DNA of 64,000 bases. It comes from Polyangium fumosum (lineage in GTDB: Bacteria; Myxococcota_A; Polyangia; Polyangiales; Polyangiaceae). The notes under the pieces are model-generated. The model ran no database searches and was not told where the DNA came from. It saw nothing but the letters and a program-made list of their open reading frames with translations. The translations under genes were made by a program, and so were the position numbers. Below, piece after piece: positions 27,336-44,706 of the stretch. Positions within the stretch are counted from its first letter, which is position 1. Each line of letters opens with the position of its first letter. The stretch covers positions 1-64,000 of the forward strand of contig NZ_SSMQ01000067.1 of NCBI RefSeq assembly GCF_005144585.1, read 5' to 3'.

Positions 27336-27830
27336 ATGGAGAATCCCACGGGTCGACGCAGCTTTTTGCTCGTCCGGGCGCGCTCCTGGATTTGCGCGTT
27401 GCCCGCGTCGTCGGTCATCGAGACGATGCGCCCGCTGGCGATCGACCCCCTCGCGCACGCGCCGCGCTTCGTCGCGGGCCTCTCCGTGGTCCGCGGCGAG
27501 ATCGTGCCCGTCGTATCGCTCTCGGCCGTCCTCGGGGAAGGCGGCGAGCGGGCAGAGGCACGGCGGCTCGTGCTGGTGCGCGCGGGGGAGCGGCGAATGG
27601 CGCTGCTCGTGGAAGACGTGGTGGGCATCGAGGAGCTCGACGAGGCGCGCCTCGATACGCTGCCGCCTCTGCTCGGCGAGGCGCTGCCCGCGGAGGTCGA
27701 GCGCCTGGGCGTGCTGGATGGGCGGGCGCTCGCGGTGCTCGACGCCGCCCGCCTGCTCCCGGAGGCCGTGTTCGCCTCGCTCCCGAGCGCCGATTCCCTT
27801 GCCACCGCCTTGCCACCGCCGCCGCGATGA
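27336..27830 (+). CDS. CheW-like coupling protein 1
   Basis: A protein of 164 residues from ATG 27336; GGAGG at 27322-27326 suits this start better than ATG 27330. It has the CheW fold pattern: a strand with LLVRARSWICALPASSV, FVAGLSVVRGEIVPVVSLSAVLG (family G-x-x-x-x-R-G-x-x-x-P-V-x-x-L) and a late VLVRAGERRMALLVEDVVGIEEL. CheW links the receptor to the CheA kinase. It is the first gene of a seven-gene cluster and overlaps the CheR gene by an ATGA, so the two are translationally coupled. Confidence 0.85.
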   Translation: MENPTGRRSFLLVRARSWICALPASSVIETMRPLAIDPLAHAPRFVAGLSVVRGEIVPVVSLSAVLGEGGERAEARRLVLVRAGERRMALLVEDVVGIEELDEARLDTLPPLLGEALPAEVERLGVLDGRALAVLDAARLLPEAVFASLPSADSLATALPPPPR

Positions 27831-29329
27831 ACGCCCCGCGTGACGCCAAGGGGATCGAGGACCTCATCGAGGCCCGCTTCGGCCTCGCGCCCTCGGGCTT
27901 TCAGCGCGACCGCATCGAGATGATCCTCGGCGAAAAACCGGCGCGCAGCGGCGGGCCGATCCCGCTCGAACGCCTGGTCGAGGCGGTGACGGTCGGCGAG
28001 ACCTATTTCTTTCGCGAGCCGATGCAAATCGACGCGCTCGTGCGGCGGGTGCTGCCCGAGCGCGCGCTCGCGGGGGCGCGCGGGCGCAAGCTCCGGATTC
28101 TCTCGGCGGGCTGCTCCTCCGGCGAGGAGCCTTATACGATGGCCATCGCGACCGACCTGGCCACGCCGGAGCTCTCGTCGCTCCTGTCGATCACGGGGCT
28201 CGACGTGAACGGGGCCGCAATAGAAAAGGCCCGGCGGGCGCGGTATTCGTCCTGGGCCTTGCGCGGGGCCTCGCAGCCGATCCGCGATCGGTTTTTCAAG
28301 AAAGACGGCGAGGCGTTCGTGCTCGATCCGCGCATCCAGAGCCGCGTCGTCTTCGAGGAGGGCAACCTGCTCGAAGTGCTCGCGCGCTTGCCGGAGGCCA
28401 CGTACGACGTCGTCTTTTGCCGCAACGTGCTCATCTATTTCTCGGAGCGCGCGCTCCGCCGGGCGCTCGCGGGGTTTGCCCGGGCGCTCCTCCCGGGCGG
28501 CTATCTCTTCCTCGGTCACAGCGAGTCGCTGCGCGGGATCTCCGACGAATTCGAGCTCGTCCACGAGAACGACGCGTTTTATTACCGCGCGAAGAGCCCG
28601 AACGTATCCCCGGCTGCGACGACGATCGCGCCGCCCGCGCCCCGGCTGCTGCCCGAGCCCCCGATCCGCGCGCCCTTGCCCACGCCCGCGGAAGGGGCGT
28701 TCTCGTGGGCGGAGGAAATCCAGCGCGCGTCAACGCGGATCGCCCGGATCGCAGAGACGCGGGAGGTCGGGGGCGCGGCGGCGGGCGCGCCAAAGGCGAG
28801 GGCGGCGGAGGGGCCTTCGGCGCTCGCGCGCGTGCTCGATCTGCTCGAAGCGGAGCGGCATGACGATGCGCTCGTCGTGGTGACGGCCGCGGGCCCGGAC
28901 GCGCCGCCGGAGCTCGAGCTCTGCCGGGCGGCCATTTACGGGGAAAAAGGGCGATTGCGGGACGCGGAGCGCACGCTCGGCGCCCTGCTCGCGCGGGGGC
29001 AATGCGAGACGGGCGCGCATTACCTGCTCGGGCTCCTGCGCGAGAACGAGCGCGACATCGAGCGGGCGGCGTGGCATTACCGCGAGGCAAAGCGGCGGGA
29101 TCCTCATTTCTCGCTGCCGCGCCTGCGGCTCGGCATGGTGCTCCGGCGCGAGGGGCACGGCGCGAGCGCGCGCGTCGAGCTCGAACAAGCGCTCGTGTTG
29201 CTCGAACGCGAGGATCGCGCGAGGATCGTGATGTTCGGTGGGGGGTTTCGAAGGGAAGTGTTGCTGGAGCTGTGCAAGGCCCAGCTCGACGCGCTGGGCG
29301 TCCCGAAACGGGATTCGACGCGCGCGTGA
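27827..29329 (+). CDS. CheR methyltransferase with C-terminal TPR (WspC/FrzF-like)
   Basis: A protein of 500 residues. Residues about 10-265 are CheR: VTVGETYFFREP, LRILSAGCSSGEEPYTMAI (SAM motif I), GLDVNGAAIEKARRARYS, FCRNVLIYF, PGGYLFLGHSES. A Pro/Ala linker and a TPR-like region follow (about 330-490; LLEAERHDDALVVVTAAG, AIYGEKGRLRDAERTLGALL, GLLRENERDIERAAWHYREAKRRDP). It methylates glutamates of the adjacent receptor with SAM. CheR fused to TPRs is the hallmark of WspC and FrzF, so this belongs to an alternative-function system and not simple flagellar chemotaxis. Confidence 0.9.
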   Translation: MNAPRDAKGIEDLIEARFGLAPSGFQRDRIEMILGEKPARSGGPIPLERLVEAVTVGETYFFREPMQIDALVRRVLPERALAGARGRKLRILSAGCSSGEEPYTMAIATDLATPELSSLLSITGLDVNGAAIEKARRARYSSWALRGASQPIRDRFFKKDGEAFVLDPRIQSRVVFEEGNLLEVLARLPEATYDVVFCRNVLIYFSERALRRALAGFARALLPGGYLFLGHSESLRGISDEFELVHENDAFYYRAKSPNVSPAATTIAPPAPRLLPEPPIRAPLPTPAEGAFSWAEEIQRASTRIARIAETREVGGAAAGAPKARAAEGPSALARVLDLLEAERHDDALVVVTAAGPDAPPELELCRAAIYGEKGRLRDAERTLGALLARGQCETGAHYLLGLLRENERDIERAAWHYREAKRRDPHFSLPRLRLGMVLRREGHGASARVELEQALVLLEREDRARIVMFGGGFRREVLLELCKAQLDALGVPKRDSTRA

Positions 29330-34861: not shown

Positions 34862-35956
34862 ATGAAACCACATGTCCTCGTGGTCGACGACAGCCTTACC
34901 GTTCGGATGGATCTACGCGGCGCCCTCGCGGCCGCGGGCTTCGCGGTCACCGCCTGCGAGTCCAAACGCGAAGCGGAGAAGGCCCTCCGCGAGCGCGCCT
35001 TCTCCCTCGTCGTGCTCGACGTGATCCTGCCCGACGGGAGCGGCATCGAGCTGCTCGGCGCGATCCGCGCGAGCGCAGAGCTCGCTCGGCTTCCGGTCCT
35101 CCTCCTCTCGACCGAGGCCGAGGTGCGCGACCGCGTGAAAGGGTTGACCACGGGCGCCGACGAGTACGTGGGCAAACCCTACGACATCACCTACCTGGTC
35201 CGCCGCGCGCGCTCGCTCTGCGAGCGGACGAGCGGCGAGGAGACCGGACCCGTCGCCGGTGCGCGCCGCATCCTCGCCGTCGACGACAGCCCCACGTTCC
35301 TCACGCAGCTCGCGTGCAAGCTGCGCGAAGACGGCCACGACGTCGTGCTCGCGCGCTCCGGCGTCGAGGCGCTCGAGCTGCTCGCGGTGCAGTCGGTCGA
35401 CTGCGTGGTGCTCGACCTCGTGATGCCCGACGTCGACGGCATCGAGACGTTGCGCAGGCTCCGGCGTTTGCCCGGCCGCGAGTCCACGCCGACGGTCATG
35501 CTCACGGCGAGCGAGGATCCCGCTGTCGCGCGGCGCGCCACGGACGCGGGCGCCTCCGAGTTCGTCCACAAGAGCGTGGACCTCGATGCGGTGCGCGCGA
35601 AGATCCGGAGCCTCCTGCGCAACCGTCGCGCCGCGCAGACCACGACACCCCCTGCGCGCGCGTCGAGCGTCGAACGATCGCCTCCATCGCGCCCGAACGG
35701 CCCGGTCTCGGAGAGCCCCCTGCTCCTGCGCGTCGTCGCGGCGATGGGGCTCGCGCCCATGCTCGCGCGCAGCGTGCTCACGAAGGCTTGTGCGCGCGCC
35801 GGCGTCGACGCGGGCGTGCTCGGCGTCGAGGGCTTGAAGCGTGCTCTGCCGGCCCTCCGCGACGCGCTTCAGATGTTCTACCCGGCCGAGGAGGCGCAGC
35901 GCCGCGCGCAGATGATCGCGGTGTTGATCACGCCCGCGGATCATCCGGAGGCGTGA
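34862..35956 (+). CDS. Dual-receiver response regulator (REC-REC) with helical C-terminal domain
   Basis: A protein of 364 residues from ATG 34862 (GGGGGA 4 nt upstream; ATG 34850 has almost no spacing and is less likely). REC1 at 1-120: VVDDS, Asp53 in VVLDVILPDG, Lys near 105. REC2 at about 135-255: AVDDS, Asp185 in VVLDLVMPD, Lys near 233. A helical C-terminal domain (about 280-364; VVAAMGLAPMLARSVLTKACARAG) lacks DNA-binding or GGDEF motifs. In Myxococcus FrzZ also has two receivers. It is the presumed output of the cluster, replacing the WspR diguanylate cyclase position; how it acts is unknown. Confidence 0.88.
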   Translation: MKPHVLVVDDSLTVRMDLRGALAAAGFAVTACESKREAEKALRERAFSLVVLDVILPDGSGIELLGAIRASAELARLPVLLLSTEAEVRDRVKGLTTGADEYVGKPYDITYLVRRARSLCERTSGEETGPVAGARRILAVDDSPTFLTQLACKLREDGHDVVLARSGVEALELLAVQSVDCVVLDLVMPDVDGIETLRRLRRLPGRESTPTVMLTASEDPAVARRATDAGASEFVHKSVDLDAVRAKIRSLLRNRRAAQTTTPPARASSVERSPPSRPNGPVSESPLLLRVVAAMGLAPMLARSVLTKACARAGVDAGVLGVEGLKRALPALRDALQMFYPAEEAQRRAQMIAVLITPADHPEA

Positions 35957-36318
35957 GCTACGCCGGGTAGGTTCGTTCAAACCCGAACCCGCAGCTCGAC
36001 GCCTGTGATGTCCTCGCGGAGCATCTCGCGCATCGGATCCTCATCTCGGTGGCTCATCACCAGCGCGACGATGCCCTATCCGGCACGCGCGGGCGGTCGT
36101 CCTCCAGCGTGGGATGGACGATCCTGGCCGAACAGCCGAGGGGCACGAGCGCCGCCGTCGCGCAACCGAGGAGCCCGAACGAAAGAAGGGTTCCTACGCG
36201 CGGGAGGCCATCGCCTCCATGCGATCAGAGCGCTTGCACTCTGTCAACGAGGTGCGTGTCCGCCGCTCACGGGGCGTCGCCCCCGCGAGGTGGGGGAGCA
36301 CGTGCCGCACGGGGAGAG
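35957..36318 (-). other. 362-bp region: end of chemosensory cluster to first R gene
   Basis: From 35957 to about 36075 I see no feature. From 36076 it holds the L0 remnant, and 36212-36318 is the leader shared by the L genes, ending at the stop codon of R1. Confidence 0.6.
36076..36211 (-). pseudogene. L0, truncated copy of the array lipoprotein gene
   Basis: Homologous in DNA to the first ~48 codons of the L genes (the block that encodes LLGCAT-ALVPLGC and DDRPRVP), entering at about 36076 and running to its ATG at 36211. A lost base and a substitution create a TAG codon after about five codons, so it cannot be translated. It is the outermost copy of the array, next to the chemosensory cluster. 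Upstream (36212-36318) it keeps the shared leader. Confidence 0.75.
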
Positions 36319-36795
36319 TCATTCCGTCCGCGGCTTCGCCCGCGCCTTGCGACGCGCCTCTCGACGCTCGTGGCGCTCGCGAATGGGACGGACGAGTTCC
36401 TCGATCTCCGCTTGGATCATTTTTTCCATACGTTGTTCAAACGCGAGGCCAAATCCCGAGGGCATAGTCATCTGAAAACCAGTATCATTTTCCGAATCCT
36501 CAGGAAATCCCTCCCATCGAAGCGGAACGCCGCTCTGCACGAGCTTGCAGCGAATGCCTATCAGAGCATTTTGGAGCGCCGCCATCGAATCGATGCTTTT
36601 GCCAAATTGAATCGAGTCATCACCCAGTCCCAGGATGGCGAAGGGGCATCTCCACACCTCGTCGCCAGGGGGTAATTCAGGAGAACCGATGCGGACCACG
36701 ACGACGCCCCCGACGGCATCACGTCGCTCGAGACGGCGCTCGGCAATCCATCGCGCTTGTTTCGCTTTTGAGGTGTTTTTTACGCTGGCAGGCAT
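36319..36795 (-). CDS. R1, array R-family protein (putative immunity)
   Basis: A soluble protein of 158 residues; ATG 36795 starts 2 nt after the L1 stop (TGAATATG). It opens with a short basic tail, then WIAERRLERRDAVGG, VVVRIGSPELPPGDEVWRCPFAI, LGLGDDSIQFGKSIDSMAALQNALIGIR and a C-terminal helix ending in the basic REARRKARAKPRTE. The shape recalls DUF6968-type proteins, but I only recognise the pattern. R proteins are about 30% Arg/Glu in the last 40 residues. It is intact although its partner L1 is broken, which is what an immunity gene kept for protection would show. Confidence 0.75.
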   Translation of the reverse strand: MPASVKNTSKAKQARWIAERRLERRDAVGGVVVVRIGSPELPPGDEVWRCPFAILGLGDDSIQFGKSIDSMAALQNALIGIRCKLVQSGVPLRWEGFPEDSENDTGFQMTMPSGFGLAFEQRMEKMIQAEIEELVRPIRERHERREARRKARAKPRTE

Positions 36796-36797
36796 AT

Positions 36798-37534
36798 TCA
36801 ATGTTTCTTGAACCGGTTAAAGCACCAGTTGCGCTTCATTTGCTCGCTCCGCAGAGTTTTGTCCCAGCATTCGCCGGCATCCGTGGAATTCGTCATATCA
36901 TTGCACAGATTCTCCCACATCACGCCGCCGGCCGCGGCCGCGTCGAGGCAGCGATTCAAGTTCGGCTTGGGCCGCCGCCTCCGAGCCGCCTCCATGAGGT
37001 CCTCATTCTTGCCAATCTCCACCGACGCGGCGATCACGACGACGATGGGGCCCGCCTCGATCCCGCCTCGATGATGAGGTCCGCAAGCGCGATCGCCACG
37101 GCCACGAGCACCCCGGGGTTGCCCACGAGCCCACGCTCGGCCGTCGGCGGGCCGTCCCCAGGCGCGGACGATTCGGACAGGCGCAACTTGCGCAGCCGGA
37201 GCAGCTCCTCCGGGACGGTCATGCCTCGCAGCGCGATCCGCGTGCACGCCGCGAGGTCCGCGTGGGGCACGCCCTTCGATTCCACATCGACCACGCCGCC
37301 CTCTTCATCGACCTTCACCGCGACGTCGAACGTGTAGTACCCCCGGGGAAGGTCGCCACCGAACTCGTCGACACATTCTCGCAGGCGCTCCGCGATGGCA
37401 TCCGGCACGCGCGGGCGGTCGTCCTCCAGCGTGGGATGGACGATCCTGGCCGAACAGCCGAGCGGCACGAGCGCCACCGTCGCGCAGCCGAGGAGCCCGA
37501 ACGAGAGGAGGGCTCGTACACGCGGAGAGCCCAT
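36798..37534 (-). pseudogene. L1, lipoprotein gene broken by 11-bp tandem duplication
   Basis: An L-family gene (ATG 37534) whose frame is shifted by an exact tandem duplication of CCCGCCTCGAT (37051-37061 and 37062-37072; read on the plus strand). Removing one copy restores the full protein of about 241 residues: signal peptide with VPLGC, AKV-x-VDEEGGVVDV, hydrophobic stretch, and the C-terminal NLNRCLDAAAAGG domain with CW and WC. The related copy at 42240 has a single unit. As it stands, the product ends about 12 residues after IIEAG with an unrelated tail. The downstream R1 is intact. Confidence 0.85.
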
Positions 37535-37960
37535 CGCCTCCATGCGATCAGAGCCCTTGCACTCTGTCAACGAGGTGCGTGTCTGCCCTCACCGGGCGTC
37601 GCATCCCGAACTCCATGTTGCCGGAGTTTTACCGGGACCGCAAGGGAGGTTCGTCCAGGGAGCCGACGCGGAACCACCGCCGCCCGTCTAGGCTCGAACG
37701 ACAGCGGCTCCGCGTCGGCTTCCGAGGACAACCCTTACCGGAGACCAACGAGGCTGTCGAGCTTCGAGGACAAACCGGTGCGCCGTGGGCCATTGCGCGT
37801 CGCGAGGCTGCGCCGCGCGTCGAGAGCACTCCGAGGGCTGCGCCGTCGAGCATGACGCCCGTAAGCGTGGCGGAGCAGGCTCACCAAACTTGCTCTTCGG
37901 TGTTCTAAGCCAGTAGCCTTCTCGGCCAGCGACGGCCGAGCGACGGCCGAGCGAGAGATC
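37535..37960. other. 426-bp divergent region between L1 and L2
   Basis: 37535-37610 is the shared L leader (TGTCAA at 37565-37570, i.e. TTGACA on the minus strand). A 12-bp inverted repeat, AGCCGACGCGGA (37661-37672) and its complement (37709-37720), lies in the middle. Just before L2, CGACGGCCGAG is repeated twice in tandem (about 37930-37952). No gene is supported. Confidence 0.5.
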
Positions 37961-38683
37961 ATGTCGAAGGTCAACGTCTGGATCGAGGGGATGTTTTTCG
38001 CGTGCCTGACGATGGCGGTTGTCGCGTTTGGCTGTGCGAGCAATATCGAATATCCTCCGCTGAAACAGGCGCCGATCGTCGAAGGGCCACACGCGCCGAA
38101 CAAAACCATCGCGCGCCTGCGATGGTGCGTCGAGGAGTACGGCGGAGACCTGGGTGGACGAAGCTTCGAGTTTGACTATGACGTGAAGGTCGACGAAGAG
38201 GGGCGGGCGGTCTCTGTGACGTCGGACGTGTTGAATGCCGATTTCGATGGGTGCACGCGGGCGGCGCTCCGGGCGATGGAGGTGCCGCCGGAGCTTTTGC
38301 TGACGTGGATGTCGCGGCCGCTCGCCCGGGGAGACGGACAGACGAACGCGGCGCGGGGGCTCGCCGGCAATGTCCTCGTCATCGTGGGGGTGGTCGTCAA
38401 GCTGGCCCCCATCATCATCGAAGCGGCCGGGGTGACGATCCTGTTTACGATCACGCTGGCGATCGCCGACGAGGTCATCGAGGCGATTCGGAAGTATCGG
38501 CCCAATCCGAACCTGAACCGCTGCCTGGATGCTGCCGCGGGTGGCGAATCTATGTGGAAGGAGTTTTGTCGAGCAGTAGCGGAAAAATTGCCGGACCCAT
38601 ACGATGCGCAGGAATGCTGGAGCAAGACATCAATGAGCGAACAAGAGAAGCGGAACTGGTGCCGGAATCTATTCGGAAATTGA
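37961..38683 (+). CDS. L2, array lipoprotein (putative toxin), intact
   Basis: A protein of 240 residues. Signal peptide with AVVAFGC, then an N-terminal region with FDYDVKVDEEGRAVSV and a Cys (DGCTRAALRAMEVPPELL) that looks like a TonB/AgmX-type C-terminal fold. Two hydrophobic stretches follow (VLVIVGVVVKLAPIIIEAAG, VTILFTITLAIADEV). The C-terminal domain holds NLNRCLDAAAGG, W-K-E-F-C, ECW and NWC with four conserved cysteines. R2 starts 2 nt after its stop. A GAGAG site precedes ATG 37961. It is the only array unit on the plus strand, and its N-terminal third is the most diverged. A lipoprotein delivered to a neighbour, with R as antidote, is my inference. Confidence 0.8.
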   Translation: MSKVNVWIEGMFFACLTMAVVAFGCASNIEYPPLKQAPIVEGPHAPNKTIARLRWCVEEYGGDLGGRSFEFDYDVKVDEEGRAVSVTSDVLNADFDGCTRAALRAMEVPPELLLTWMSRPLARGDGQTNAARGLAGNVLVIVGVVVKLAPIIIEAAGVTILFTITLAIADEVIEAIRKYRPNPNLNRCLDAAAGGESMWKEFCRAVAEKLPDPYDAQECWSKTSMSEQEKRNWCRNLFGN

Positions 38684-38685
38684 AT

Positions 38686-39153
38686 ATGTCCACTGGTGCA
38701 AAAACCACGCCGAAGGCCAAACGAATACGATGGATTGCCGAGCGCCGTCTTGAGCGACGCGACGCCGCCGGGGGCATCGTCGTGGTCCGTATCGGTTCTC
38801 CCGAATGGCCTCCTGGCGCCGAGGAGTGGAGATGCCCGTATGTCATCGAGGGATTGGGCGATGACTCGATTCGATTTGCTCACAGCAACGAGTCCATGGC
38901 AGCGCTCCAAAACGCCATTCAAGGCATTCACTACGACCTTGAGCGGAGCGGGATTCCGGTTCGATTGGAAGGGGCTAGAAAAGACTACACGGGGTTTTCC
39001 CCGTTCGTAACATGGACGTACGGGCGCGCGTTTCAACAACGGCTCGAAAAAATTCTCTTGGACGAAGAAACGAAGCTCGTCCAGGCCAAGTGCGAGCGCC
39101 GTGAACGTCAAGAGGCTCGCCGCAAGGCGAGGAAAAAGCCGCGCACCGAATGA
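38686..39153 (+). CDS. R2, array R-family protein (putative immunity)
   Basis: A protein of 155 residues. It has WIAERRLERRDAAGG, VVVRIGSPEWPPGAEEWRCPYV, LGDDSIRFAHSNESMAALQNAI and the Arg-rich end REARRKARKKPRTE. It pairs with L2 (TGAATATG junction). Its last 45 codons and the 12 nt after its stop match the inverted copy R4, so R2 and R4 form a pair of inverted repeats flanking a damaged region. Confidence 0.8.
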   Translation: MSTGAKTTPKAKRIRWIAERRLERRDAAGGIVVVRIGSPEWPPGAEEWRCPYVIEGLGDDSIRFAHSNESMAALQNAIQGIHYDLERSGIPVRLEGARKDYTGFSPFVTWTYGRAFQQRLEKILLDEETKLVQAKCERRERQEARRKARKKPRTE

Positions 39154-39223
39154 AGCGATGACCGCGGTATCAAAGGAATCACCTTCCTGGTCTCCTGAGT
39201 CCCGTGCCGTCGAGCACGACCGC

Positions 39224-39418
39224 CCCCCGGGGAAAGTCGCCACCGAACTCCTCGACGCATTCTCGCAGACGCTCCGCGGTGGCGTCGGGGACACGCGGGC
39301 GGTCGTCCTGCTGCGCCAGTTGTCTGACCGTGGCCCCGCAGCCGAGCGGCACGAGCGCCACCGTCGCGCAACCGAGGAGCCCAAACGAGAGGAGGGTTCG
39401 TACGCGCGGAGAGGCCAT
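39224..39418 (-). pseudogene. L3, 5' fragment of an array lipoprotein gene
   Basis: ATG 39418 opens an L gene (VPLGC signal, DDRPRVPDAT, RECVEEFGGDFPRG), but homology ends at about 39224, where CCCCCGGGGAA meets unrelated DNA. About 65 codons remain. The break lies just beyond the end of the plus-strand unit L2-R2. Product without the membrane and cysteine domains. Confidence 0.8.
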
Positions 39419-39525
39419 CGCCTCCATGCGATCAGAGCCCTTGCACTCTGTCAACGAGGTGCGTGCCCGCCCTCACCGGGCGTCGCGCCCGCGAGGTGGG
39501 GGAAGCACTTGCCGCACGGGAAGAG

Positions 39526-39666
39526 TCATTCCGTCCGCGGCTTCGCCCGCGCCTTGCGGCGCGCCTCTCGACGCTCGCGGCGCTCCCGCTCCTCGCGCTC
39601 GCGCGTGGGCGCGGGAAGCTTCGCGACTTCATCGAGGATCATTTGTTCCATGCGTCGTCGAAACGC
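39526..39666 (-). pseudogene. R3, 3' fragment of an R-family gene
   Basis: Only the last ~46 codons of an R gene remain (RRRMEQMILDE, REARRKARAKPRTE, stop at 39526-39528). It breaks at about 39666, where the homologous sequence GAAACGCG meets the post-stop flank of R4. It lies upstream of the leader and of L3, as expected if a unit was lost by deletion. Confidence 0.75.
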
Positions 39667-39683
39667 GGATGGCGGTCATCGCT

Positions 39684-40199
39684 TCATTCGGTTCGCGGCT
39701 TTTTCCTCGCCTTGCGGCGAGCCTCGTAACGTTCCATTTGCTCGTAAAAGGGCCGCAAGCGCTCCGAGATGGCCGCGTCGATCGCGTTGATCACCTCTTC
39801 CATCCGACGATCAAATTCGACCCCGTAGCCCGTGGGCACTTGTACGGGGAGACCAAACGTCTCCTCCTGGGTCCTTTCCCAGCGAAGGGGGGTGCCGTGC
39901 CTCTTGAGGAGCACGTGGATGCTACGAAACGCGTTTTTCAGCGCATCCATCGAGTCGACGCCGTATCCGAAAAGCGGAGCATCCTTATCAAGACGAAGGT
40001 CTTCGATCTGGGTCAGATCAAGCCCCTCGATTTGAAGTGGGCATCTCCAAACTTCGCCATGGGCGCTCTTGATGGGGTCGGGTTCCGGGCACCCAATGCG
40101 AACGACAACCCGGCCCGGTACGTCGAGTCGCGTGTATTCACGCTCGGCGATCCATGAAGGCGGCAGCTTTTTCACAGGGGTCTTCGACTTGGCTTTCAT
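39684..40199 (-). CDS. R4, array R-family protein (putative immunity), most diverged
   Basis: A protein of 171 residues from ATG 40199, 5 nt after the L4 stop; an ATG at 40211 overlaps L4 but sits directly on its AGGAG. It keeps SWIAEREYTRLD, VVVRIGCPE, VWRCPLQIEGL, GVDSMDALKNAF and the end EARRKARKKPRTE, with an insertion before DKDAPLFGYG not seen in R1 and R2. Divergence in the R body together with a different L4 C-terminal domain fits specificity co-evolution. Confidence 0.75.
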   Translation of the reverse strand: MKAKSKTPVKKLPPSWIAEREYTRLDVPGRVVVRIGCPEPDPIKSAHGEVWRCPLQIEGLDLTQIEDLRLDKDAPLFGYGVDSMDALKNAFRSIHVLLKRHGTPLRWERTQEETFGLPVQVPTGYGVEFDRRMEEVINAIDAAISERLRPFYEQMERYEARRKARKKPRTE

Positions 40200-40204
40200 G
40201 CGTT

Positions 40205-40906
40205 TCACCATCTCCTGAACTTGGCATAACACCAGCCTCTTTTGTGTTGTTCGCTCTCAGGGCCCTCTCCCCAGCACGGGCTGCCGGGATGTCCCTCGCC
40301 GATCGAGCGGCAAAACTCCTCCCACATATATTTGCCCCCCGCAGCGGCGTCGAGGCAACGATTCAGGTTCGGCGGGGGCCTCCTCCGCGCCACCTCCGCG
40401 ATCTCCAGCGAAGCGGCCACAACGACGATGACGTAGGGGCCCACTTCGATCGCGAGGTCCGCGAGGGCGACCACCACGAGCACGAGCGCCGCGGCGTTCC
40501 CGACGAGCCCCCGCTCGGCCGTCGTCTGCCCATTCGCTGGCGCGGACGCTTCGGACAGGCGCAGCTTGCGCAACCGGAGCAGCTCCTCCGGCACCGTCAT
40601 CCCTCGCAGTGCGATCCGCATGCAGATCGCGAGATCGGGATGGGGCACGCCTTTGCTCTTGACATCCACCACGCCGCCCTCCTCGTCGACCGTCACCGTC
40701 GCGTCGAACGTGTAGTAGCCGCCCCCGAGCTCGCCACCGAGTTCGTCGACACACGCCCGCAGCCGCTCCGCGGTGGCGGCAGGGACACGCGGGCGGTCGT
40801 CCGCGGGATAGCGGATCGTGGCCCCGCAGCCGAGCGGCACGAGCGCCACCGTCGCGCAGCCGAGGAACCCGAACGAGAGGAGGGTTCGTCCGCGCGGAGA
40901 GCCCAT
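40205..40906 (-). CDS. L4, array lipoprotein (putative toxin), intact
   Basis: A protein of 233 residues. ATG 40906 is chosen because copy L6 has an in-frame TAG at the upstream ATG position. Signal peptide GFLGCATVALVPLGC; ATVTVDEEGGVVDV and ICMRIALRGMTVPEELL form the N-terminal fold; hydrophobic LVLVVVALADLAI and VIVVVAASLEI; C-terminal NLNRCLDAAAGG, WEEFC, PCW, GWC. It overlaps R4's upstream region and has the L leader with TTGACA. One of two intact L genes. Confidence 0.8.
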   Translation of the reverse strand: MGSPRGRTLLSFGFLGCATVALVPLGCGATIRYPADDRPRVPAATAERLRACVDELGGELGGGYYTFDATVTVDEEGGVVDVKSKGVPHPDLAICMRIALRGMTVPEELLRLRKLRLSEASAPANGQTTAERGLVGNAAALVLVVVALADLAIEVGPYVIVVVAASLEIAEVARRRPPPNLNRCLDAAAGGKYMWEEFCRSIGEGHPGSPCWGEGPESEQHKRGWCYAKFRRW

Positions 40907-41012
40907 CGCCTCCATGCGATCAGAGCCCTTGCACTCTGTCAACGAGGTGCGTGCCCGCCCTCACCGGGCGTCGCGCCCGCGAGGTGGGGGAGCACTTCGC
41001 GCACGGGAAGAG
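40907..41012 (-). promoter_or_regulatory. Shared L leader between R5 stop and L4
   Basis: A conserved segment of about 105 bp found before L0, L1, L3, L4 and L6. Read on the minus strand it has TTGACA (40942-40937), then GAGTGCAAGGGCTCTGATCG, then the start codon. The part next to the preceding R stop is shared too. TTGACA could be a -35 element; the -10 is unclear. Confidence 0.5.
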
Positions 41013-41993
41013 TCATTCCGTCCGCGGCTTCGCCCGCGCCTTGCGGCGCGCCTCTCGACGCTCGTGGCGCTCGCGAATGGGACGGACGAGCTCCTCGATC
41101 TCCGCTTGGATCATTTGTTCCATGCGTCGTCGAAACGCGAGGCCATAACCTCGGTCCGTGTCCATGGGAAAACCCGTGTCATTTTCCTCAAGCCCCTGCA
41201 ACGCCCATCGAAGGGGCACCCCGCTCTGCTCGAATGTGCAACGAATGCCCCGCAGGGCGTTCTGGAGCGACGCCATCGAATCGCCACCATGACCAAAATG
41301 AATCGAATCGTCGTCCCCCAGCCCCAGGATCGTGAAGGGGCATCTCCACACATTTTTGCGAGAGGGTAGCTCGGGAGCACCCATACGAACCAGGACGATG
41401 CTCCCGACGGCATCACATCGCGCGAGACGGCGCTCAGCGATCCAGCGTGTTCGTTTGGATTCGGAGGTGGTTCTGGGTGGAGCAGGCATGTTCACGTCCC
41501 GGACCTGGGGATCTTTTCGCGCCTTCGCCGCCCGCGCCTTGCGGCGAGCCTCGCGGCGCTTCTGCTCCTCGCGCTCGCGCGTGGGCTCGGCGAGCTTGGC
41601 TTCTTCATCGAGGATCATTCGTTCGATACGTTGTCGAAACGCGAGGCCATAACCCGCGTCCGTATCCATGGGAAAACCCGTGTCGTTCCCAGCGTCGTCA
41701 TCAAACCCCTCCCATCGTAGCGGAATGCCGGTCTGCTCGAACGTCCAGTAGATGCCCCTCAGGGCATTTTGGATAGCGGCTATCGAGTCGACGCTGTGAG
41801 CAAACTCGATCGAATCGTCACCCAATCCCGAAATCATGTAGGGACATCTCCACTCCTCGGCGGCAGGGGGCCATTCAGGATGACCGACGCGCACCACGAC
41901 GAGGCCCCCGACGGCGTCACGTCGCTCGAGGCGACGCTCGGCCATCCAGGGTATTTGTTCTGCTTCTGCGTTTGTCATTGTAGGCTTGGACAT
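41013..41993 (-). CDS. R6-R5, double R-family protein from in-frame fusion
   Basis: A protein of 326 residues holding two complete R domains (about 5-150 and 175-326). Each has WMAERRLERRD or WIAERRLARCD, VVRVGHPE or VRMGAPE, a GLGDD-SI-F-H block, DS-A-L-QNALRGI and a basic end. Between them lies DVNMPAPPRTTSESKRTR, which is the usual N-terminus of an R protein, so the two were separate genes joined after loss of the first stop. ATG 41993 overlaps the L6 stop. Both domains keep conserved residues, so selection appears to act on the fusion. Confidence 0.8.
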   Translation of the reverse strand: MSKPTMTNAEAEQIPWMAERRLERRDAVGGLVVVRVGHPEWPPAAEEWRCPYMISGLGDDSIEFAHSVDSIAAIQNALRGIYWTFEQTGIPLRWEGFDDDAGNDTGFPMDTDAGYGLAFRQRIERMILDEEAKLAEPTREREEQKRREARRKARAAKARKDPQVRDVNMPAPPRTTSESKRTRWIAERRLARCDAVGSIVLVRMGAPELPSRKNVWRCPFTILGLGDDDSIHFGHGGDSMASLQNALRGIRCTFEQSGVPLRWALQGLEENDTGFPMDTDRGYGLAFRRRMEQMIQAEIEELVRPIRERHERREARRKARAKPRTE

Positions 41994-42712
41994 CACCAGT
42001 ACCCGAATTTTTCGTTGCACCAGCCGCGCCTGTCCTGTTCGCTCAACTTCGTCTTGCTCCAGCATGTCGCACGGTCGATGTCGTTGGGAATCGTGTTGCA
42101 GAAGTTCTCCCAAAGCGCACCACCCGCCGCAGCCGCGTCAAGGCAACGGCTCAAGTTCCGGTTGGGCCGCCGCCTCCGAGCCGCCTCCATGAGGTCCTCA
42201 TTCTTGCCAATCTCCACCGACGCGGCGATCACGACAACGATGGGGGCCGCCTCGATGATGAGGTCGGCGAGGGCGATCGCCACGGCCACGAGCGCGGGGT
42301 GGCCGACGAGCCCCCGCTCGGCCGGCGCCTACCCGTTCGCAGGCGCGGACGTATCGGACAGGCGCAGCTTACGCAGCCGGAGCAGCTCCTCCGGCACGGT
42401 CATCCCTCGCAGCGCGATCCGCATGCAGACCGCGAGCTCCGGAGAGGGTACGCCTTTTCCCTTGACATCCACGACGCCGCCCTCCTCGTCGACCTTCACC
42501 GTCGCGTCGAACGTGTAGTACCCCCCTCCGAGCTCGCCACCGAGCTCGGCGACACACGCCCGCAGCCGCTCCGCGGTGGCGGCAGGGACACGCGGGCGGT
42601 CGTCCGCGGGATAGCGGATCGTGGCCGACGCGCAGCCGAGCGGCACGAGCGCCAGCGTCGCGCAGCCGAGGAGCCCGAACGAGACGAGGGTCCGTACGCG
42701 TGGTGAGGCCAT
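41993..42712 (-). pseudogene. L6, lipoprotein gene interrupted by an amber codon
   Basis: A full-length L frame (ATG 42712 to stop 41993-41995, 239 codons) with one in-frame TAG at 42331-42329. The intact L4 has CAG at the equivalent place, so a single C-to-T change suffices. Before the stop: signal VPLGC, VKVDEEGGVVDV, MRIALRGMTVPEELL. After it: AVAIALADLIIEAAPIVVVIAA, NLSRCLDAAAAGG, ENFC, TCW, GWC. Either a recent nonsense mutation or, less likely, read-through. The upstream ATG seen in other copies is replaced here by TAG, which fixes the start of the family at this ATG. Confidence 0.8.
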
Positions 42713-43355
42713 CGCCTAGAGGCGATCAGAGCCCTTGTACTCTGTCAACGAGGTGCGTGTCCGCCCTCACCGGGCGTCGCACCCCGGTGCGTTCCCCCCG
42801 ACGTCGAGCTTGCAGCCATCGACCCGTGTTTTCCCGGCATTTCCCGCGCCGACATGCCGCAAATCGTCCCGCGACGCGTCGCCCTGCCATTTCGGACGTT
42901 CGAACGGCCCGACACACCGCTTGCCCTCCCGCTTCGCCCGATCACTCCGCATACGCGCTGCTTTGCCGAGTGTCGTTGCGCGTCTGAACCGGCACGTCGA
43001 CATTTCACCGCCTCCTCATGCGCGCCGGGGCCGCTTCGTAACCCGCTTGGAATGTCGCCTCGAACGCCGTGCGCGGCCCCGCGCGCGCTCGCGCCACGAC
43101 TTCCGTCGTCCCGAGCGCCCACGCAAGCGCTCGCGCCGCCATTCCACGCGCCCGCGGCACGCCCGTCGACGTTGCGACCTCACGTCCGGCGCCCGAACCG
43201 CCCCTGCGACGCGTTGCAACGCCGCTTCAGCCGGCTCGAACGCCCCCGCAAACCGTCGCCGAGGCGTTCGAGCCCTCCCACGCAGAGGACGGCGGCGTCG
43301 CCGGGCGGTCTCTGCCCTTGACGCCCAGGATGCGCGATCTCTAGCATCCGCCACC
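42713..43355. other. 643-bp divergent region: L6 leader and promoter of the coiled-coil gene
   Basis: 42713-42785 is the L leader (TGTCAA at 42743-42748). The middle part is GC-rich with no supported gene, although several frames stay open. A promoter lies at 43318-43347. Confidence 0.55.
43318..43347 (+). promoter_or_regulatory. Sigma70-type promoter, leaderless
   Basis: TTGACG (43318-43323), an 18-nt spacer and TAGCAT (43342-43347) precede ATG 43356 by 8 nt. This is the clearest promoter in the window. Confidence 0.55.
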
Positions 43356-44234
43356 ATGGTTGGAATCAAGACCCTCCCCGAAACAGCGACCACGACGACC
43401 GGCGAGACCCATTTCCGCTTCATGGCGTCCCGCGTCCGGCGCAACCCCCACACGCTGGCGTTCGTCGCCGAGGTGGATGCATTCGAGCCGCGCATCGAGG
43501 CCGCCATCGCCGAGGAGAGGAACCTGCTCGCAGCCGAGGCCTCCGCCGCCGCGGCCGTCCAGTTCGCGGATCACGACCTCGATGATTCGGTCGATTTCGT
43601 CTGGGCCAACGTGGAAAAGGGCTCGCTCCTCGCGCAACGGCTCTTCGGGGATCTGCGGCCCAGCGAATTGAAGCGCCCCACGCTCGGCGGGCAGCTCGAT
43701 ATCATGAAGACCTGGCCCGAAGCCCTGGTGGAAGCCGACAAAGCCGTGCTGAAGGACCACGCCCCCGTGGTCGCCGCGCGCGCGCAGGCCGGCGCAATGG
43801 CCGCGGAGGAGAAGAAGAGCGCAACGCAAAAGCTCGTCGATTTCCGCACGATCGGCACCCGCGTGAAACTGAATCAGGATCACAACGGATTGCGGAAGTC
43901 CCTCCACGGGAAGCTCGGCGAGGTCCAGCACGCGCACAAGCTCGGCGCCGGATGGGCAGAGTCGTTCTTCCTGCAAGAGTCCGCCGAAGAGCTGACGTTG
44001 CCCCAGCTCGACAAGAAGATTGGCGCGGCCACGGCGGAGCTCGACGCGCTGACGAAGCAGCGGGAAGCGCTCGTCGCGCAGGAGGCGAGGCTCGCCGCCC
44101 AGCGGGCGCAGGCCGAGAAACGAGAAAAGAAGGCGAAGCTCGACGCGCTCCAGAAGCTCAAGGCCGACCTCGCGGCGCAAGAGGCGGCCCTGCTCGCCGA
44201 GCTCGCCGAAGGCGACGCGTCGACGAAGTCGTAG
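43356..44234 (+). CDS. Coiled-coil protein of unknown function
   Basis: A protein of 292 residues with no signal peptide. The first 190 residues are helical and Ala-rich (HFRFMASRVRRNPHTLAFVAEVDAF, FADHDLDDSVDFVWANVEKG). From about 200 to 285 there is a strong coiled coil (LDALTKQREALVAQEARLAAQRAQAEKREKKAKLD). I do not recognise a family. It stands alone, with the array on the other side of its promoter. Confidence 0.7.
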   Translation: MVGIKTLPETATTTTGETHFRFMASRVRRNPHTLAFVAEVDAFEPRIEAAIAEERNLLAAEASAAAAVQFADHDLDDSVDFVWANVEKGSLLAQRLFGDLRPSELKRPTLGGQLDIMKTWPEALVEADKAVLKDHAPVVAARAQAGAMAAEEKKSATQKLVDFRTIGTRVKLNQDHNGLRKSLHGKLGEVQHAHKLGAGWAESFFLQESAEELTLPQLDKKIGAATAELDALTKQREALVAQEARLAAQRAQAEKREKKAKLDALQKLKADLAAQEAALLAELAEGDASTKS

Positions 44235-44360
44235 CCACGGTAGGGCTTGACAATCGCCTCCGTTTCCGTTTCCGCCTCCGCTCCTTCGCTCGCCGTCGTC
44301 ACGCGCGAACGCGCGCCAGCGTCGACCGCGTCGACCGCCTCGACCGCCCGGGCCTTTTGC

Positions 44361-44373: not shown

Positions 44374-44706
44374 ATGACGGGTGCTCCCGACACAAGGCAG
44401 CTCTTCGAACGCATCCTCTCCCTCCTCGAGGCGATGGAGGAGAACCAGCGGCAGAAGGTCCTCTCCCTGGCGCGGCGCCTCTTGCCGGGGCTCACGCCGG
44501 AGGACATCCGCAATCCTCATGATTTCCCGGACCTCGACGACCCCGACTGGCACTTCGAGGACGGGCAACTGACGGGAATTCAGTCGGTGCGGTTTGCGCT
44601 GCGGGCGCTCTCGGGTGAAGTTCTGTCTCATGGCGACCAAGGCGCGAGCCGGGCGGACGAGCACCAAGAAGACGCAGAAGAAGCCGAGCAAACAGGCGGC
44701 CGATAG
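44374..44706 (+). CDS. Small acidic helical protein
   Basis: A protein of 110 residues. It begins with a helix (LFERILSLLEAMEENQRQKVLSLARRLLPGL) and has an acidic DLDDPDWHFEDGQLTG turn. The last 25 residues overlap the start of the Smr gene in another frame by 77 bp and are low-complexity, so only the first 85 or so residues may matter. No family is recognised. Coupled to the Smr-domain gene. Confidence 0.55.
   Translation: MTGAPDTRQLFERILSLLEAMEENQRQKVLSLARRLLPGLTPEDIRNPHDFPDLDDPDWHFEDGQLTGIQSVRFALRALSGEVLSHGDQGASRADEHQEDAEEAEQTGGR

Follow-up and report, generated by a model that had tools for sequence, protein, structure and literature searches.

Gene content of the L1 array

The window, by which we mean the whole 64,000-nucleotide stretch of Polyangium fumosum DNA analysed here, carries an array of toxin-like genes accompanied by genes encoding DUF6968 (PF22302). 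L1, the toxin-like gene under study, is read from the minus strand and is split over two frames. The N-terminal frame (37034–37570, the start at 37570 being the first start of the ORF) encodes a signal-like start, a conserved domain and the first hydrophobic segment, and runs to its stop as ...ADLIIEAGSRRAPSSS (ending ...IIEAGSRRAPSSS). The four-Cys C-terminal part (36798–37037, minus strand) lies in another frame, and its stop is found 2 nt before the ATG of an intact DUF6968 gene (36319–36795, minus strand), the predicted immunity gene of L1. The two parts of L1 meet at a GTGA (37034–37037), in which the start codon of the four-Cys frame (GTG) and the stop codon of the N-terminal frame (TGA) overlap.

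The second cassette, also on the minus strand, has a toxin-like gene (42329–42712) cut by an in-frame TAG (42329–42331), past which the remainder continues in the same frame with the four-Cys domain retained (41993–42328). Behind it follows an open frame of 366 codons with two DUF6968 domains (41013–42113, minus strand), which is perhaps a fused immunity gene. Two toxin-like genes with a four-Cys C-terminus are intact, one of 245 aa on the minus strand (40205–40942, with a DUF6968 gene behind it at 39684–40232 on the same strand) and one of 240 aa on the plus strand (37961–38683, followed by a DUF6968 gene at 38686–39153, plus strand). The plus-strand copy is closely preceded by a 2.5-copy period-11 tandem (37928–37954). 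The array additionally holds 5′ remnants of further toxin-like genes at 39203–39454 and 36060–36209, and a 3′ remnant of a DUF6968 gene at 39526–39667 that was recognized from repeat matches only (all minus strand). Of the six toxin-like copies in the window, two are thus intact, two are broken and two persist as 5′ remnants, and five DUF6968 domains are present in open frames. Five DUF6968 matches exceeded the Pfam cut-off of 27 bits, four of the window frames scoring 42.6, 36.5, 75.7 and 45.1 bits. Two of the four long copies count as broken owing to the tandem in L1 and the TAG at 42329–42331, respectively.

The array is located in an island (35957–44358) flanked by a response-regulator-like gene (judged by eye) that ends at 35956 and a small ORF that starts at 44374. 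These flanks adjoin each other in the genomes G001, G002 and G003, which have no cassette at the equivalent chromosomal site. G004 has other sequence in the interval, matching the array only in the ORF from 42823 and in 122 bp resembling 37607–37728, and no family member was detected there by the search. In G005 the site holds one intact cassette of the four-Cys type, 78% identical to 36314–37571 (L163). As the flanks are adjacent in three genomes, no cassette was found in a fourth and a single one is present in a fifth, the array is regarded as accessory. The ORF adjoining the array (42823–44359) appears coiled-coil-like by eye; at least seven further copies with at least 80% identity were found in the genus away from the L1 site, four of these seven with other lipoprotein-family members no more than about 2 kb away, and in G004 the ORF is found at the same site, with no cassette detected.

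The 11-bp tandem and the frame of L1

The frameshift in L1 lies at an exact two-copy 11-bp tandem (37051–37072), consisting of CCCGCCTCGAT twice on the plus strand and ATCGAGGCGGG twice in gene sense. Tandem Repeats Finder (TRF) reported a period of 11, 2.0 copies and a 100% match, and the net shift is 11 bp, in agreement with the exact duplication claimed in a preliminary description of this DNA. Allowing up to two mismatches, the 22-mer was found once in the window and in none of 100 shuffles. In relatives with one unit the frame is uninterrupted across the position of the tandem, and it is conserved on both sides of it, so the further proposal that the conserved frame is regained with one unit holds as well. 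The related copy at about 42250, which had been put forward as the single-unit counterpart, does contain a single unit, which differs at one base (GCCGCCTCGAT, at about 42245), but cannot serve as an intact reference owing to its in-frame TAG. It is the 11-bp gain that places the N-terminal and four-Cys parts of L1 in separate frames.

Four exact two-copy 11-mers are present in the window (27797, 29207, 37051 and 37928), against Markov means of 0.05–0.25 period-11 tandems (20 sequences for each of three orders) and a single exact period-11 tandem in other stretches, partly overlapping, that total about 600 kb. At 29207 four relatives showed no length difference at the repeat, which speaks against a duplication there, and G001 is one substitution short of a perfect tandem; the tandem at 27797 is common to the window and G001. 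A local period-11 bias as a mechanism was dropped on account of these two sites. For the same reasons, an exact two-copy 11-mer on its own is weak evidence of a duplication, and it is the extra length together with the altered frame that identifies a true 11-bp insertion at 37051. Slippage would be the simplest origin of this duplication, which retains that part of the preliminary description in a weaker form. When the phrase “11-bp duplication” was sought in the literature, no paper was found among the matches listed.

Of the 81 copies of the family, 70 (L1 included) have an alignment spanning the site, and none of these except L1 carries the insertion; across the same alignments the only out-of-frame events near it were those of L1 and L117. 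The latter, a close relative of L1 (3591–4089 of a 22,259-bp contig of G003), shows a frameshift at the codon affected in L1, reading IIEA and then TPSSS before a stop; its lesion is a 1-bp difference, unlike the insertion in L1, and leads to the same GTGA overlap. Additional downstream decay, which the preliminary description had named, together with fixation of two units in all strains, as an observation that would speak against its reading, was not visible in the four-Cys part of L1, which has no stop and retains all four cysteines. The dN/dS values of this part compared to nine relatives were 0.36–0.52 (other pairs 0.25–0.72); this comparison has little power if the event is very recent, and the nine include two copies that are broken themselves (L117 and the one at 42250).

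A modular family and its partner genes

At least 27 matches to L1-like genes, pieces included, were found in the same genome, and at least 9 of 108 genomes of the taxonomic family contained such matches. Six of these belong to the genus Polyangium, and the family is present in all six Polyangium genomes. Together with 74 retrieved stretches, the window yielded 87 ORFs or ORF pieces in six genomes, which were resolved into 81 copies; family copy numbers are lower bounds. The members share a signal-like start, a conserved N-terminal domain and a hydrophobic part, about 150–185 aa before the variable part, followed by variable Cys-rich C-termini. The hydrophobic start with VPLGC or AFGC ahead of the mature part (by eye) may point to a lipid anchor, and the hydrophobic segments are predicted to span the membrane.

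By visual inspection, this one N-terminal family carries at least four types of C-terminus, and the downstream partner gene changes with the C-terminal type. A third C-terminal type is seen in L107 and L151 (WSCTASCNVQQ..., with L151 ending in HCQCRC) and has its own partner gene; the L107 partner (140 aa) gave no match in Pfam. Six partner genes belonging to other types were scanned with Pfam. Up to E 0.1, three of them gave no match; TPR matches were obtained for the remaining three, above the cut-offs in one and below them in two. The four-Cys domain had no Pfam match, and a scan of NCBIfam gave none above cut-off. A model of the toxin-like protein built from six window sequences (pLDDT 63.5) retrieved no PDB fold match at E ≤ 0.001, and the corresponding DUF6968 model (four window sequences, pLDDT 48.3) was too poor for a fold search.

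A profile built from ten four-Cys ends identified 28 loci in total, in 11 of 183 genomes of the order and in 10 of 377 genomes drawn from the phylum, these being partly the same genomes. DUF6968 was encoded behind the four-Cys domain at all 15 Polyangium loci, of which four are in the window, at four of five other loci of the order and at one of eight weaker, distant loci. The DUF6968 profile itself included those four order loci as well as the window genes, and the four outside genes were confirmed independently by Pfam (E 8.5e-11 to 3.4e-17). The pairing is not one-to-one, as seven of the eight weak distant loci and one of the five order loci are without DUF6968, and DUF6968 is also found behind other Cys-rich ORFs in the genome of L1 itself. 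At a single locus (L220 in G066), the four-Cys domain was found at the end of an RHS-repeat protein (PF05593, E 3.9e-15), which is where RHS toxins usually carry their toxin domain, and a DUF6968 ORF begins about 10 nt after the stop of that protein. Unlike in RHS polymorphic toxins, the carrier in the window is a short lipoprotein-like part, in which Pfam detected no RHS repeats. No paper with the word DUF6968 was found in a literature search, most subscription papers lying outside its range, and the papers that contained both “Polyangium” and “polymorphic toxin” had neither term in the title or abstract.

The layout of the L1 family is that of polymorphic toxins as outlined in PMC3482391. 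Among myxobacterial systems, it corresponds to that of SitA/SitI of Myxococcus, which in the descriptions available from PMC5562445 and PMC8546572 is likewise myxobacterial and lipoprotein-like, with a family-defining N-terminus, a polymorphic C-terminus, an immunity gene directly downstream and many paralogues per genome. SitA proteins are, however, described there as having an escort domain of about 375 aa belonging to one of six families, and their C-termini are described as nucleases, in contrast to the small Cys-rich domains seen here. Since the stretch ahead of the variable part is much shorter than that escort domain, the L1 family was not assigned to SitA. Delivery of SitA depends on TraAB; traAB has been reported in Sorangium cellulosum, according to PMC6372800. 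The MafB toxins of Neisseria are similar to the L1 array in forming toxin islands with some frameshifted genes, the frameshifted mafB genes being noted in two islands of N. lactamica 020-06, and differ in N-terminal domain and delivery by the description given in the same source (PMC4287609).

Taken as a toxin–immunity system, the four-Cys domain would have the toxin activity and DUF6968 the immunity activity. A different role, in which the lipoprotein and its DUF6968 partner serve for example as an envelope sensor and L1 is a decaying paralogue, would agree with Pfam finding no toxin domain in the tested proteins save for a weak match of L154 to Ntox24 (E 0.042, below cut-off). We consider such a role unlikely, as the variable C-termini are matched by variable partner genes, the four-Cys domain occurs with DUF6968 in an RHS context, and the genes are present in high copy number and in an island.

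Damage in the family and the nature of the L1 lesion

Frameshift-aware alignment showed 17 of the 81 copies to be damaged, 12 by small coding lesions and five as fragments. Apparent lesions in the first 40 residues of the guide sequence (mostly upstream of the start) or beyond its residue 249 were not counted, which leaves out a TGA in the last part of L135 and the end differences of L107 and L157. The damage is uneven, as 10 of the 12 copies with small lesions, including L1, have a full-length downstream partner, the remaining two being L153, with a shortened partner, and L130, with none. Of the fragments, a single one (L122) keeps its partner and four are without.

Three relatives, L111, L143 and L130 (in G000, G004 and G002, respectively), have in common a contraction from G5 to G4 in GTCGGGGGTTGC (GTTGGGG in two of them) that ends at an ATGA overlap. 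Their fetched flanks differ and the cassette alone is common to them; L143 begins at a contig end, and L130 carries further lesions. Either an old broken cassette that has moved or repeated slippage would account for this pattern, and the G5/G4 tract was also considered as the site of a programmed frameshift that is conserved.

We conclude that L1 is probably the toxin gene of a polymorphic toxin–immunity cassette, with DUF6968 as the immunity protein, that has been knocked out by one 11-bp tandem duplication. The preliminary description had instead raised a phase switch, in which the two-unit tract gains or loses a unit by slipped-strand mispairing and turns the toxin on or off. The repeat is exact and without a gap, one-unit relatives read through, the frame downstream of the tandem is undecayed, and the G5-to-G4 contraction in three relatives from three genomes indicates that tract slippage may affect the family elsewhere. 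Slipped-strand contingency loci, in the account of PMC11868660, resemble L1 in having an out-of-frame tandem repeat in the coding region, and differ from it in that the L1 tract has two units only. Two units do not make a hypermutable tract, and L1 is alone in carrying the insertion among the 70 copies spanning the site. Ten other copies are frameshifted, and at the 11 sites inspected in them no tandem of period 7–40 was present. According to the same source, the mga locus is not classed as an evolved switch for want of evidence of spontaneous reversion; by that standard, which requires spontaneous reversion, L1 was not called a phase switch, and we regard switching at this locus as improbable. 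The promoter repeats described for a mycobacterium in PMC12817950 exceed 50 bp and were not taken as a parallel.

A split gene was assigned a slightly lower probability still and is thus also doubtful. Here, the truncated lipoprotein and a 79-residue four-Cys part would both be made, with termination–reinitiation at the GTGA keeping DUF6968 translated. The overlap itself, the 2-nt gap to the DUF6968 ATG, the hit of another lesion at the same codon of L117 with the same overlap, and the open C-terminal parts of L1 and L117 with low dN/dS are all in line with it. The overlap requires no selection, however, as any lesion of the same class within about 175 nt downstream of 37221 gives the same stop, and shifts of this class would often end at NTGA from codon structure alone. 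Moreover, no clear ribosome-binding site was seen by eye, and the C-terminal piece is without a signal. That the frameshift is a tolerated or even favoured gene split, in which case L117 would be a convergent fission of toxin from carrier, is given marginally less credence than the split itself.

An assembly or base-calling artefact is very improbable: the draft assembly does comprise 201 contigs, but 22 bp fall well inside one short read, which counts against such an error, and the array also has an independent TAG and remnants.

For the favoured reading of L1 as a disabled toxin gene, the following course of events may be proposed. The ancestral product would have been a lipoprotein-like carrier made up of a signal, a conserved domain and two hydrophobic segments, with a small four-Cys domain at its end. 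An additional 11-bp unit would have arisen in the gene, through slippage or a similar copying error, between the two hydrophobic segments, severing the four-Cys domain, and, with the DUF6968 immunity gene remaining intact, the cell would have lost the weapon and kept the shield. The surrounding array would then represent an accessory island amid gain and decay, with such losses being common in the family.

The L1 lesion thus gives the impression of everyday erosion within a large family of competition toxins on which little has been written, and not of a built-in on/off switch, and broken toxin genes beside intact immunity genes would provide a direct record of the decay of an arsenal. More useful than the lesion is its setting, a multi-copy family of lipoprotein-like putative toxins in Polyangium with a small four-Cys domain that has no counterpart in Pfam, in which immunity offers a testable role for DUF6968, a domain of unknown function.
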